NCBI RefSeq assembly: GCF_000021725.1
Contig: NC_012115.1
Location: 390,501 to 454,500, forward strand
Direction of reading: 5' to 3'
Length of the DNA: 64,000 bases
Source of the DNA: Nautilia profundicola AmH
GTDB taxonomy: Bacteria; Campylobacterota; Campylobacteria; Campylobacterales; Nautiliaceae
Positions within the stretch are counted from its first letter, which is position 1. Each line of letters opens with the position of its first letter. Positions 5,628 through 58,898 of the stretch are shown piece by piece. Both the position numbers and the translations under genes were made by a program. The notes under the pieces are model-generated. The model did no database searches. It saw nothing but the letters and a program-made list of their open reading frames with translations, and had not been told where the DNA came from.

Positions 5628-5640
5628 AGTGTCAGGCACT
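5628..5640. repeat. 13-base palindromic dispersed repeat, copy 2
   Basis: AGTGTCAGGCACT, 29 bases after the tsf stop codon; same AGTG-N5-CACT frame as the other copies. Confidence 0.75.
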
Positions 5641-5855: not shown

Positions 5856-5920
5856 GATGTATTTTTAATATTAATTAGTTATTTTGAGTCTTAAATTGTA
5901 AACAGCCGTCAATCAATAAC

Positions 5921-6150
5921 CATTGACCATTGACCATTGACCATTGACCATTGACCATTGACCATTGACCATTGACCATTGACCATTGACCATTGACCAT
6001 TGACCATTGACCATTGACCATTGACCATTGACCATTGACCATTGACCATTGACCATTGACCATTGACCATTGACCATTGACCATTGACCATTGACCATTG
6101 ACCATTGACCATTGACCATTGACCATTGACCATTGACCATTGACCATTGA
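5921..6150. repeat. Perfect 7-base tandem array, about 32.9 units
   Basis: The unit CATTGAC (TGGTCAA on the other strand) repeats without a visible error for 230 bases: 32 full copies plus six bases. Because 7 is not a multiple of 3, three units give seven codons; the minus strand is open in all three frames (reading MVNGQWS over and over), whereas the plus strand meets TGA in every frame. The array is bracketed by copies 3 and 4 of the 13-base palindrome, copy 4 only two bases away. Perfection over this length implies recent expansion or active homogenisation, so unit number is likely to differ between strains. Confidence 0.97.
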
Positions 6151-6165: not shown

Positions 6166-6353
6166 TATATTTGAGTAATTAATACACTTGTTAGCAAATA
6201 AATATACAAATAACAAATACACAAATAATTAATTAACATTACATCAAATATACCAGTGACTAATTAAGTGTAAAACCAAACTTATCTATTTAACAACTTC
6301 ACAACTTAGCCAACTTCAATAACCAATTACCAATAACAACTTTGAACTTTTGC

Positions 6354-28375: not shown

Positions 28376-28445
28376 CATAAAAAAGTAGTTAAGTTGTGAA
28401 GTAGTTAAGTTGTGAAGTTATAATTATTTTCACAACTTAATTACT
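28376..28445 (-). terminator. Repeat-derived hairpin terminator between the 28.4-29.5 kb gene and metE
   Basis: On the minus strand AGTAATTAAGTTGTGAA (28445-28429) can pair with TTCACAACTTAACTACT, present twice in tandem (28416-28400 and 28400-28384), 16 of 17 pairs; the second copy runs straight into CTTTTTTATG. The fold starts at the stop codon of the upstream gene (28441-28443). The arms are octamer units AGTTGTGA/AGTAGTTA of the family also found at 53.8, 56.9 and 58.8 kb. Confidence 0.7.
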
Positions 28446-43817: not shown

Positions 43818-44050
43818 TAATTCCCTTTGAATATGTCGGATATATTTTTTAAAACAGTTATATCCACTTCTTTTGCGGCTTTTTTGTTCTCTTGTGTAAT
43901 TTGCTCTATTAATTCGCTTCTTAATATAGGTATGTTTTTAGGTGCGTCTATTCCGATTTTTACCTGGTTTTTATCGACTGAAACAATGGTTATTTCAATA
44001 TCGTCGCCGATTTTTATTTTTTCGTTTATCTTCCTTGATATTACTAACAT
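43817..44050 (-). CDS. csrA: Carbon storage regulator CsrA
   Basis: RNA-binding post-transcriptional regulator; in Campylobacter it represses flagellin translation and is counteracted by FliW. The N-terminal [22 protein letters not shown] and RSELIEQI near residue 45-52 are the family core; GIDAP stands where the conserved G-V-x-AP turn is expected. 77 residues. Overlaps truB by seven bases. Confidence 0.95.
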
Positions 44051-44928
44051 AACTCAATCCTATTTAATATGTATGATACTTTTTCGTCTTGTATTTCTAT
44101 AATAGCAAAAAATCTGTCGAATTTTACATAATATTGTCCGTTTTTTTTAATTTTAAAATCATTTGCATTTAATTTTCTGCCTAAAATAAGATTTTCAATA
44201 TCTCCGAGATAAACATTTTCGTCTAAATCAAGGTACTCTGTGGGATTTAAAAGTTTTTCACACTCATAATGAAACTTGCCTTCATTAACCCTTTCAAGAT
44301 ATGTAAGGGCACCATCAACACCTAACTTTTTTGCTATGTCAAAACCGAGGCTTCTTATGTAGGTACCTTCGCTGACACTTGCTTTAAATGTAATAAAAGG
44401 ATGAGAGTAATTTATAAGTTCTATATCAAATATCTCTATATCAATCTCTTTTTCCAAATATACGTTTTGAGATATATTATTCTCAATTCTCAATTCTGCA
44501 TTCTCAATTAAATTGTAGGCTCTTTGGCCGTTTATTCTTTTAGCACTGTATTTGGGTGGGAGCTGCTTTTGTTTTCCCAAGAACTCTTTTAGCGTGTTAA
44601 TAATCAGATCTTTTTCAAAAGGATCAATTTGTGTAATGGTTTCAATTTTTTCTATATCAAGGGAAGGGGAGTATGCCCCGAGCATCAGTGTGGCTATATA
44701 TGTTTTGGGAGTTTTTTTAAGAAATCTGAAGAGTCTGGTATACTGTCCGCTCGCAATTATAAGACACCCGCAGGCAAACGGATCAAGTGTTCCCGAAAAT
44801 CCCATTTTTTTAATGCCGTATTTTCGTTTAAGCTGGTTTAAAAACTTATTTGAACTGACAAATATCGGCTTGTTTGCTACAAACAGTATGTTTTTACAAT
44901 TCTCCATTCTCAATTCTTCATTCTCCAT
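44044..44928 (-). CDS. truB: tRNA pseudouridine-55 synthase TruB, carrying repeat-derived segments
   Basis: Makes pseudouridine 55 in the T-loop of tRNAs. The catalytic aspartate is in [28 protein letters not shown] is the family block that follows. Two stretches are coded by the GAGAATT-type heptamer: residues 1-10 ([10 protein letters not shown]) and about 140-150 (ENAELRIEN), the second lying in the linker between catalytic blocks and adding some ten residues relative to typical TruB. The N-terminal extension may or may not be translated: Met8 (44907) is another start. 294 residues, and otherwise normal. Confidence 0.92.
44479..44509 (-). repeat. Heptamer block inside truB coding sequence
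   Basis: ATTCTCA-ATTCTCA-ATTCTGC-ATTCTCA-ATT on the plus strand, in frame within truB and sense-oriented as GAGAATT units. Confidence 0.8.
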
Positions 44929-52531: not shown

Positions 52532-53734
52532 ATGAAAATTTTAATTGTAGAAGATAGTGAAATCTACAGGAAACTCTTAAAAAAAAATATTGATAAATAT
52601 CTTGTTTTTGCAAGATGCGATATTGTAAAAAACTTTGAAGAATTGAAAAAGTTACAAAACCTTCAAGAATACGATCTTTTTTTATGTGATTATTTGCTTC
52701 CGGACTCTATAAATGCTGAACATATTAAATATATTTTAAAGTTTTCTTCAAATATAATTGTTATGACTCAGTTTGAAAAAGAATTTATTAATTCTGATTT
52801 AGAAGAAAAAGTAATAGATTTTATCGTAAAAGATGATTTTCATACTATAGATTATCTGATAAGATTTATAAAACATTTATATAGAAACAGACAAGTTAAA
52901 GTTTTAATAGTGGACAAAGATAAAAATATTTTAGATTTAGAAAAACGTATATTAAATAAAATCAATATAAACGTCATCCAAGCACAAGACGGGTTAGAAG
53001 CGCTTGAAAAACTTAAAACAAACAGTATAGATTTGATTCTTACAGATTTAATTATGCCGAAAATGGACGGCCAAGAACTTCTTTTGGCTGTGCGTGAAAA
53101 ATATAATATGACTGAACTACCTGTAATTGTGTTGTCTTCAGATACACAAACAGATAAATTTTTGAAAACTCTTAAATTGGGAGCAAATGATTTTTTAGGC
53201 AAACCTTTTTTAAAAGAAGAGCTGATATTAAGGGTTAATAATTTATTAGAGATTTGTGAAAATATAAAAAAAGTAAAAAGGCAGCTTCAAATTGATCCTT
53301 TGACCGGTGCTTATAATAGGATGTTTTTAGAAGGTAGTTTGGAAAATATTTTTAATATAAATGAAAAGAAATCTATCGTAATGATTGATATTGATCATTT
53401 TAAAAAAATAAATGATACATATGGACATCAAATAGGTGATGAAATTTTGATACATTTCGTAAACACCATTAAAAACACAATAAGAAAATCGGACTTGCTT
53501 ATTAGATACGGAGGAGAAGAGTTTATGCTTTATATGCCCGATACTACAAAAGAAGAAGCTATGATTGTAATGTATAAGATAAGAAAAAACCTCAGACCTT
53601 GTAATGGTATAAAATATTCTTTCTCCGCCGGAATAGCAGATGAAGGCGAAACACTTGCGGAAATGGTAAAAATTGCCGATAGAAGGCTTTATAAAGCAAA
53701 ATATGAAGGAAGAAATAAAATAATAGCTAATTAG
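52532..53734 (+). CDS. Response regulator with two receiver domains and GGDEF diguanylate cyclase output
   Basis: 400 residues. REC1 about 1-115, with phospho-acceptor D53 (LCDYLLPD) and K100; REC2 about 121-240, with D172 (LTDLIMPKMDG) and K224; GGDEF about 255-400 with active GGEEF at 327-331. An RxxD inhibition site (R318-D321) lies five residues before it, so product inhibition is likely. The architecture resembles PleD. REC1 has normal acidic residues (E7, D8), so both receivers may be phosphorylated. No histidine kinase gene is adjacent. Convergent with pabB, overlapping by eight bases. Confidence 0.92.
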   Translation: MKILIVEDSEIYRKLLKKNIDKYLVFARCDIVKNFEELKKLQNLQEYDLFLCDYLLPDSINAEHIKYILKFSSNIIVMTQFEKEFINSDLEEKVIDFIVKDDFHTIDYLIRFIKHLYRNRQVKVLIVDKDKNILDLEKRILNKININVIQAQDGLEALEKLKTNSIDLILTDLIMPKMDGQELLLAVREKYNMTELPVIVLSSDTQTDKFLKTLKLGANDFLGKPFLKEELILRVNNLLEICENIKKVKRQLQIDPLTGAYNRMFLEGSLENIFNINEKKSIVMIDIDHFKKINDTYGHQIGDEILIHFVNTIKNTIRKSDLLIRYGGEEFMLYMPDTTKEEAMIVMYKIRKNLRPCNGIKYSFSAGIADEGETLAEMVKIADRRLYKAKYEGRNKIIAN

Positions 53735-54686
53735 GTATATATACTTTTTTTATCAATTCATCATATTCGTCTTTAATATTACTGTCTATTGTAATTCCTC
53801 CTCCGCTTTTATAGATGTAGTTGTAAACTTGTGAAGTGGATAAGTGGTGAAGTTGTGAAGGTGTGTTGTTAGGATTTTCTATGTATCTTATTATTACGGC
53901 ACTGTCAAGAAAGGTTTTTTCATCGGTAATACCGAATATTCCCGTATAAAAACCTCTTTCATAATTCTCCGCTTTTTTTATTATTTCTACGGTTTTTTTC
54001 TTTGGAGTTCCCGTAATTGAACCGGCAGGAAGCATCTGTTTTATAAGTTCAAGCCAGTTATAGTGCCAATTGTTGGGAAGGGTTGCTTCTATTTCACTGC
54101 TTACTTGCAGCAGTTCTTTGTCACCTGCTTTAATTTTATCAATAAATCGGAATTTGTTTACTTTTACGTTGTATCCTATAATTCCCAAATCGTTTCTTAA
54201 AAGATCCACCACCATCGTATGTTCGGCCATTTCTTTAATGTTTGAAAGTATTTTTTCTTTCGCATTTGGGATTGAAGCGTCGATTGTCCCTTTCATTGGA
54301 TATGTGGATATTTTGTTGTTTTGTATTTTGACAAACCTCTCAGGGGAAAAGCAGACGAACTTGTTTTTGAAATAGAGCTTAAACTGTGCGTTTGATGATG
54401 AAAAAATTTCTAACAAGTCGCAGTTTGTTTCGATCTTTGTAGGGAATGTTAAATTTAAAAGGTATGTGTTTCCTTTTTTTATTTCTTCGATAATAAATTC
54501 AAACGCATTTTGATATCGCTTAAAAGGTATTGGCTTTTTATTTAATATTTTACATTTTTTATTGTTTTTAAAATTATGATTGGAAAAAGAAGGAAAAGAA
54601 AAATATACTTCTTTTAATTTATCAACTTCCTCAATATAACTGTTTCCGTCAAAATCGATTAAAAAGAACTTTAAATTTTTTATCAT
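53727..54686 (-). CDS. pabB: Aminodeoxychorismate synthase component I (PabB-like), with octamer insertion
   Basis: Converts chorismate to aminodeoxychorismate with an amidotransferase partner. Chorismate-binding fold of 319 residues: EHTMVVDLLRNDLG, PAGSITGTPKKKTVEII and YERGFYTGIFGI are characteristic. It lacks the N-terminal domain of larger PabB/TrpE. Residues about 275-288 (in NTPSQLHHLSTSQVYN) are encoded by five 8-base units at 53823-53862, between a strand ending in IIRYIE and the conserved SGGGITIDS, in place of a short turn; so the repeat was tolerated in a surface loop. It lies three bases after pyrB. Confidence 0.87.
   Translation of the reverse strand: MIKNLKFFLIDFDGNSYIEEVDKLKEVYFSFPSFSNHNFKNNKKCKILNKKPIPFKRYQNAFEFIIEEIKKGNTYLLNLTFPTKIETNCDLLEIFSSSNAQFKLYFKNKFVCFSPERFVKIQNNKISTYPMKGTIDASIPNAKEKILSNIKEMAEHTMVVDLLRNDLGIIGYNVKVNKFRFIDKIKAGDKELLQVSSEIEATLPNNWHYNWLELIKQMLPAGSITGTPKKKTVEIIKKAENYERGFYTGIFGITDEKTFLDSAVIIRYIENPNNTPSQLHHLSTSQVYNYIYKSGGGITIDSNIKDEYDELIKKVYIPN
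53823..53862 (-). repeat. Octamer block inside pabB coding sequence
   Basis: GTAAACTT-GTGAAGTG-GATAAGTG-GTGAAGTT-GTGAAGGT: five 8-base units, same family as 28.4 and 56.9 kb; 40 bases are not a multiple of three, so frame was restored by flanking change or insertion size. Confidence 0.8.
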
Positions 54687-56636: not shown

Positions 56637-56668
56637 CCTTCACCACTTACCAATTTCACTACTTATCC
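56637..56668. repeat. 8-base unit repeat, left side of the small lipoprotein gene
   Basis: CTTCACCA/CTTACCAA/TTTCACTA/CTTATCC-type units; complement of the block at 56923-56962 on the other side of the lipoprotein gene. Confidence 0.6.
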
Positions 56669-56677
56669 ATTTATTTA

Positions 56678-56890: not shown

Positions 56891-56922
56891 AAAAGGCCTT
56901 TTTGTTAAATTATATCTAAAAA

Positions 56923-56962
56923 GTAGTTAAGTGGTGAAGTGGATAAGTTGTGAAGTTGTGAA
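56923..56962. repeat. Five octamer units before the M20 peptidase gene
   Basis: AGTAGTTA-AGTGGTGA-AGTGGATA-AGTTGTGA-AGTTGTGA. Followed by AGG and a purine-rich stretch up to the ATG at 57003. Confidence 0.8.
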
Positions 56963-57002
56963 GGAAAGAAGTTAAGAAAAGAAAAAGATAAAAAGGAAAA
57001 AG

Positions 57003-58190: not shown

Positions 58191-58803
58191 GAAACTGTTT
58201 AAAGGGGTTTTGAATTTTAAAAAAGAGGATTTTGAAGCACACAAAGATCTTTTTCAGGAATTAAAAGAGGGTCAGCAGCCACACACATTTTATGTAGGCT
58301 GCAGTGATAGCAGAATTGTTCCGAATTTAATTACAAAAACAATGCCGGGGGAAGTGTTTGTAGTAAGAAATATTGCAAATATAGTACCGCCTTTTGAAAT
58401 AAACGACGGAACGTATAAATGTACTGCTTCGATTCTTGAATACGCGGTAAAATATCTTGAAGTTGAAAATATACTTGTTTGCGGACATAGCAACTGCGGC
58501 GGATTAAAAGCGCTTTTTTATCCTGCTGAAAAACTTGAAAAACTGCCTATGGTTAAAAAATGGCTTGAAATAATTGACGATGTAAAAAAAGCGGTGATTC
58601 ATATACAGGATCCAAAACTCAGAGAGTGGGAAGTGGAACAGTTAAATGTTGTGAAACAGCTTGATAATCTAATGACATATCCGTTTGTAAAAGAAAGAGT
58701 ACAAGAGGGTAAACTGAATCTGATAGGATGGTATTACATTATAGAAACGGGCGAAGTGTATAATTACAATAAAGAAAAAAATATTTTTGAGCTAATCAAT
58801 TAA
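58183..58803 (+). CDS. Beta-class carbonic anhydrase
   Basis: Interconverts CO2 and bicarbonate, useful to an autotroph. The zinc ligands are Cys in GCSDSR, and His and Cys in VCGHSNCGG; the Asp-Arg dyad is in CSDSR. 206 residues, cytoplasmic (no signal). Coupled to the M20 peptidase by an eight-base overlap. Confidence 0.95.
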   Translation: MSEKLFKGVLNFKKEDFEAHKDLFQELKEGQQPHTFYVGCSDSRIVPNLITKTMPGEVFVVRNIANIVPPFEINDGTYKCTASILEYAVKYLEVENILVCGHSNCGGLKALFYPAEKLEKLPMVKKWLEIIDDVKKAVIHIQDPKLREWEVEQLNVVKQLDNLMTYPFVKERVQEGKLNLIGWYYIIETGEVYNYNKEKNIFELIN

Positions 58804-58806
58804 AGC

Positions 58807-58898
58807 AGATAAGTAGTTTACCTACCCAACCAGCCATATGTGAAGTGGCAAAGAAAATTAAAATTTTTCTAATCTTCACAACTTCATAACTTACTTAT
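58807..58898. repeat. Fold-back spacer between convergent carbonic anhydrase and amidase genes
   Basis: Left part with GATAAGTAGTT and TGAAGTGG units (58807-58848), right part with CTTCACAA/CTTCATAA/CTTACTTAT units (58874-58898), which overlaps the amidase stop codon (58895-58897). Probably serves both ends as a transcript end. Confidence 0.55.

Follow-up and report, generated by a model that had tools for sequence, protein, structure and literature searches.

The pabB gene of Nautilia profundicola AmH contains an array of 8-base tandem units that is probably (about 0.72 by our estimate) a copy of a dispersed, lineage-specific repeat seated in a tolerated surface loop of the PabB protein. The array would derive from a changing pool of 7- and 8-base families that are copied to sites or overwrite them, gain and lose units, and are subject to selection. 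The strongest evidence is that relatives carry different repeat families in the same PabB loop. Positions below are those of the window, the whole stretch of 64,000 nucleotides that was analysed (positions 390,501 to 454,500 of contig NC_012115.1), unless a genome position is given.

An octamer array in frame within pabB

The gene at 53727-54686 (minus strand) encodes a protein of 319 aa similar to aminodeoxychorismate synthase component I. The ORF has a Chorismate_bind domain (PF00425, E = 5.3e-57), and its nearest solved structures are PabB proteins, the best being 7pi1 (E = 3.7e-22). The array consists of five units, AACTTGTG AAGTGGAT AAGTGGTG AAGTTGTG AAGGTGTG, at 53826-53865 on the plus strand, antisense to pabB and in frame. 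An initial annotation of the window had reported five 8-base units at 53823-53862, and the five units are indeed present, with their place shifted by about 3 bases. It had also described the insertion as in frame, which is correct, as the array keeps the reading frame of pabB. A change of a single 8-base unit would break this frame. The period-8 signal in the loop was significant against dinucleotide shuffles (p < 0.001), and the unit of the family is AAGT[T/A/G]G[T/A/G][G/T]. The coding strand across the array reads as NNTPSQLHHLSTSQVYN, flanked by IIRYIE and YKSGGGIT. About 14 residues are thereby added between two conserved strands, and the expanded loop comprises 22 codons (residues ~271-292; 53811-53876, minus strand) between the strand ending in IIRYIE and the strand starting with KSGGGIT.

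AlphaFold2, run with an alignment of only 31 rows, predicted PabB with a mean pLDDT of 89.7. The mean was 65 for residues 271-280 and 73 for residues 281-290, with residues 280-282 below 50. The insert sits between strands 268-270 and 288-298 of the model. The annotation had pointed to an exposed disordered loop as the thing to look for in such a model. The low confidence of the loop between confident strands suggests that the insert is exposed and probably flexible.

Different repeat families in the same loops of relatives

The annotation had regarded this position as normally a short turn. Among 45 PabBs from other Campylobacterota in which the loop could be recognised, its length is 8 aa (31 proteins), 9 aa (13) or 5 aa (1), indicating that the insertion is lineage-specific. 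No distant PabB was found that has the same loop and lacks the DNA repeat. Eight members of the Nautiliaceae, a deep-sea-vent family, have a loop of 7-10 aa with no periodicity.

A significant 7- or 8-base tandem array occupies the loop in nine of the 19 readable Nautiliaceae genomes, and about six families are represented. This count includes the weak array of G004 (p = 0.01) and leaves out the long loops of G009 (p = 0.2) and G017 (20 aa, no periodicity), as well as G005, whose loop is masked in the stored data. N. profundicola (G000) and its congener G001 both have 22-aa loops made of octamers related to AAGTTGTG. The loop contains the heptamer GAGAATK in G002, the heptamer AGTNGTG in G008, the heptamer ATGWGAG next to the octamer ATGRGTNG in G011, and octamers of the ATGGGTTG kind in G019 and G020. 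The heptamer AAAATGN is found in G003 and, weakly, in G004, where it is read in the opposite direction. In several genomes, the family in the PabB loop also occurs at scattered sites elsewhere in that genome. G008 yielded 70 matches to AGTNGTG, its pabB being among the places hit, and the other genomes searched yielded none. GAGAATK is frequent in the genus to which the window belongs, G002 included. For ATGRGTNG, the congeners G005 and G017 of G011 gave 87 and 29 matches, respectively, and G011 itself only two, both in pabB.

With 600 arrays per genome or fewer landing uniformly, the PabB loop would be hit in eight of 18 relatives with a probability of about 1e-7 or lower, a value that rests on uniform landing and guessed array numbers. 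On a PabB tree that is weakly resolved over much of its extent, the long-loop state requires seven changes by parsimony, three of which are forced by well-supported branches. Clustering of the loop state on this tree was no different from that of shuffled labels.

Repeat turnover of this kind is also seen in loops of two other proteins, TruB and an SF1 helicase. A CAATTCT heptamer array at 44478-44510 (plus strand) lies antisense inside truB (44044-44928, minus strand) and encodes a 10-residue loop stretch. This loop has GAGAATT heptamers in G000 and G001, ATGGACA-type units in the same register in G002, and the CCAAGTT type in G015. The N-terminus of TruB also looks heptamer-derived. The SF1 helicase gene (L105 1774-3720, i.e. 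G000:C1:999273-1001219, minus strand) has two repeat-derived stretches, VENGKWKMENG from AAAATGG heptamers and ISSHLHDFTTSLL from octamers. The two loops differ from one relative to another. In the second, it is the repeat family that changes, with octamers in G000, octamer-like units in G005, a heptamer of opposite orientation in G001 and G009, and short turns in most other relatives.

These comparisons bear on how the arrays reached the loops. Conversion in place supposes that an ancestral Nautiliaceae PabB loop already held an array, which was homogenised in each lineage by inter-locus recombination, the short loops being later losses. This is a sub-version of our preferred reading without fresh entry, and the confidence placed in the two overlaps. 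The TruB arrays of G000/G001 and of G002 differ in unit and keep the same register, which favours replacement in place. The families are also alike (AAGTNGTG versus AGTNGTG; AAGTGGAT versus GAGTGGAT/GGGTGGAT), and the congeners G000 and G001 have PabB loops of equal length. However, the AAAATGN arrays run in opposed directions in G003 and G004, and the eight Nautiliaceae with short loops, which match the outgroups in this respect, are spread over several genera. Both observations favour independent entry, and the octamer of the G000 helicase loop corresponds to a heptamer of opposite orientation in G001. We consider conversion in place without fresh entry possible but less likely. Replacement in place and independent entry may both have taken place.

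The octamer is dispersed, genus-specific and enriched in spacers

The genome (1,676,444 bp) was searched with the pattern AAGTNGNNAAGTNGNNAAG, and the stretches around the matches were then read. There were 65 matches at about 27 sites and none with the reversed-pattern control, so that tandem units of 7-8 bases stand at many unlinked sites, as in short tandemly repeated repetitive (STRR) or dispersed short tandem repeat sequences. In two congeners the counts were 58 and 117; matches were almost absent from 58 other relatives. Among 191 units with all five fixed bases, variation was confined to positions 5, 7 and 8. Of the 28 arrays read in context, 25-26 were outside gene bodies, mostly in spacers. 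Two gene-body arrays are those of pabB and the SF1 helicase, and a third lies in the tail of a gene; the array at 1304287 overlaps an apparent ORF, the start of which is probably wrong. Because the genome is so densely coding (93.7%; PMC2628731), these coding hits are far fewer than expected from a uniform distribution.

Within the window, the annotation had located the same units at 28.4, 56.9 and 58.8 kb. The first two are clear arrays on the plus strand: a spacer array of the same family at 28383-28419, followed by a partial inverted copy (TTCACAACTTAATTACT), and an array between divergent genes at 56921-56963, which is missing from the orthologous G001 spacer. The third is weak, comprising a degenerate pair at 58803-58818 (plus strand) and two units on the opposite strand at 58877-58892, all within a spacer (58803-58892). 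Not listed by the annotation were an octamer pair in a spacer (6292-6307, minus strand) and an octamer stretch at ~56657-56672 (minus strand).

The whole-genome distribution of the arrays backs the earlier proposal that the repeats are dispersed and filtered by selection. The accompanying claim that they spread as units could not be carried by one coding insertion alone. Arrays at sites common to G000 and G001 (~80% DNA identity) do differ by gaps of 8, 8, 16, 24 and 32 bases, among other changes, so whole units are gained and lost; new sites may have been reached by insertion or by conversion of another repeat family in place. Many array positions are conserved between G000 and G001. Seven array sites of G000 are absent in G001 and other sites carry a different family, such as the spacer at 295333, where G000 has octamers and G001 has heptamers of the sequence AACYATC. 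In 635 kb of G001 that were scanned, 32 period-7 and six period-8 arrays were detected (Markov control: 0 and 0). Pairs of filled and empty sites in comparison with G001, the flanks of which are only ~80% identical, showed neither a clean target-site duplication nor an exact junction; therefore, the insertion itself was not caught. Three-unit words common to separate loci were in marginal excess (5 versus 1.6 in shuffles, fraction 0.054).

The arrays could instead be functional cis elements, serving as sites for RNA- or DNA-binding proteins as proposed for TAACTGA repeats, with the pabB copy being stray or regulatory. By eye, spacer arrays often start within ~20 bases after the upstream stop codon and often end 24-47 bases ahead of the next start codon. 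Of 17 co-directional spacers, 12 have the array on the sense strand (hand count). The G-rich strand is on the presumed leading strand at 20 of 27 sites (p = 0.02), a bias confounded with gene direction. The conservation of many positions in G001 agrees with such a role, whereas the seven absent sites, the changes of family and the free degeneration of the units at three of eight positions do not, and we regard it as unlikely.

Two pairs of facing octamer arrays, 30-60 bp apart, could form a long imperfect hairpin (G000:C1:201803-201858 and 1362782-1362862). G001 lacks the 1362782 pair at the orthologous site and has a similar pair at 1531523. An RNA hairpin or terminator role of single arrays was set aside, as the units contain almost no C; a few octamer sites do have an inverted second array. 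When viral contigs were scanned with the pattern, 43 of them matched, mostly with unrelated octamers of other composition, so that no phage carrier is indicated.

Two long heptamer arrays are perfect: (ACCATTG)33 in a spacer at 5919-6150, and (GAGAATT)51 at G000:C1:725816-726172. Each has GCCGTCAAYCA before it and ATAGTGCCAGACACT after it. A 13-bp palindrome, AGTGYCNGRCACT, adjoins both arrays and is located at 5628, 5843, 6153, 17434, 18936 and 1376 of the window. It is genus-specific, with 19 exact sites in the genome itself and 10 in each congener (reversed control, 0), and nearly absent elsewhere. Its sites are in spacers, some close to tRNAs or gene ends. One may speculate, as a long shot, that a dedicated Nautiliaceae process, possibly tied to this palindrome, writes or converts 7- and 8-base arrays at many loci, switches family between species, re-enters the same loops and thereby diversifies surface loops of core enzymes.

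A further alternative is that slippage during replication acted locally in a permissive loop, without exchange between loci, in which case the arrays would be convergent microsatellites. According to Mrazek et al., as cited in PMC4679880, heptanucleotide repeats are the class found most abundantly in the majority of genomes, and slippage was their proposed origin. The whole-unit gains and losses at shared sites and the existence of perfect long arrays are compatible with it. However, adjacent identical octamers were depleted (0.038 versus 0.079 in shuffles; 1% of shuffles at or below), and identity of units two apart was enriched (0.150 versus 0.079; 0.2% of shuffles at or above), the reverse of what fresh slippage leaves. 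This tendency of the arrays towards alternation is what a 16-base working unit, or rapid loss of identical neighbours, would produce, and it argues against simple slippage by one unit as a complete explanation. The same degenerate words at the ~27 unlinked sites, absent from sister genera, also make slippage on its own improbable. Least plausible of all is selection of the loop for a function of PabB, such as the binding of a partner or stability at the temperature of vents, with the repetitive DNA incidental: the expansion is kept in many Nautiliaceae, but its sequence, length and repeat family all vary by species, the eight relatives with short loops do without it, and AlphaFold2 confidence is low there.

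Proposed turnover and relation to known repeats

According to our preferred reading, in which the pabB array is a copy of a dispersed repeat in a tolerated loop, Nautiliaceae genomes would hold a changing pool of 7- and 8-base families. Short arrays would be copied to many sites, or overwrite arrays already present, and would then gain or lose whole units; we infer that this copying runs between loci. Selection would remove most copies, leaving survivors in spacers and rarely inside genes, where arrays would persist only if the protein loop is free to vary. Stop codons and folding would both filter the in-gene survivors. In 10 of 15 octamer arrays, all three frames of the C-rich strand are open, and in 10 of 15 the G-rich strand is without any open frame. 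Both gene-body arrays are read in the C-rich direction; octamers would persist inside genes only in this direction, which is nearly free of stop codons. The PabB loop is probably neutral, with purifying selection as the likely filter.

The STRR heptamers of cyanobacteria are genome-wide, degenerate tandem arrays of 7 bases. They have been used for fingerprinting (PMC5088731). The present repeats differ from them in the octamer unit and the taxon. Turnover of a 'library' is familiar from eukaryote satellite DNA, where the dominant member of a pool of related short tandem families changes between lineages. Unlike such satellites, the repeats described here are bacterial and form dispersed arrays of 3-8 units, also inside enzymes.

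Direct repeats of the heptamer TAACTGA are known from Beggiatoaceae, some Cyanobacteria and Bacteroidetes (MacGregor 2015, PMC4679880). Like these, our repeats are dispersed short tandem arrays, mostly in spacers near starts, with a minority in ORFs in an orientation limited by stop codons. The TAACTGA repeats, however, are one near-invariant heptamer, whereas the unit here is an octamer degenerate at three positions and several families occur per taxon. In addition, most TAACTGA insertions into ORFs are at the termini of proteins or within hypothetical ones, whereas here loops of conserved enzymes are reused by different families. Rickettsia palindromic elements (RPEs) are also dispersed and inserted in frame in conserved genes in a manner compatible with protein structure (Ogata et al. 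2000, as reviewed in PMC10969869). RPEs are palindromic units of ~150 bp with a conserved peptide, in contrast to the ~40-bp tandem arrays found here, which have no inverted structure and no conserved peptide. The octamers contain almost no C and show no self-complementarity, and so differ from a palindromic unit or the terminal inverted repeat of a MITE. Target-site duplication is a feature of MITEs and is not required of RPEs.

A literature search found no report of these repeats in Nautiliales. The class of repeat is known; the novelty lies in an octamer that is degenerate and alternates, and in a single enzyme loop that different repeat families have reused across one bacterial family. Some bacteria are rich in dispersed short tandem repeats, the spread of which is unexplained. 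One enzyme loop with about six families constitutes a natural experiment in which the supply of repeats (the current stock of the genome) can be separated from the filter (the tolerance of the protein), and the PabB loop provides defined filled and empty sites for telling insertion, conversion and slippage apart. In Nautiliaceae, repeats probably enter genes time and again, or are swapped within them, and would persist only where the protein tolerates them.
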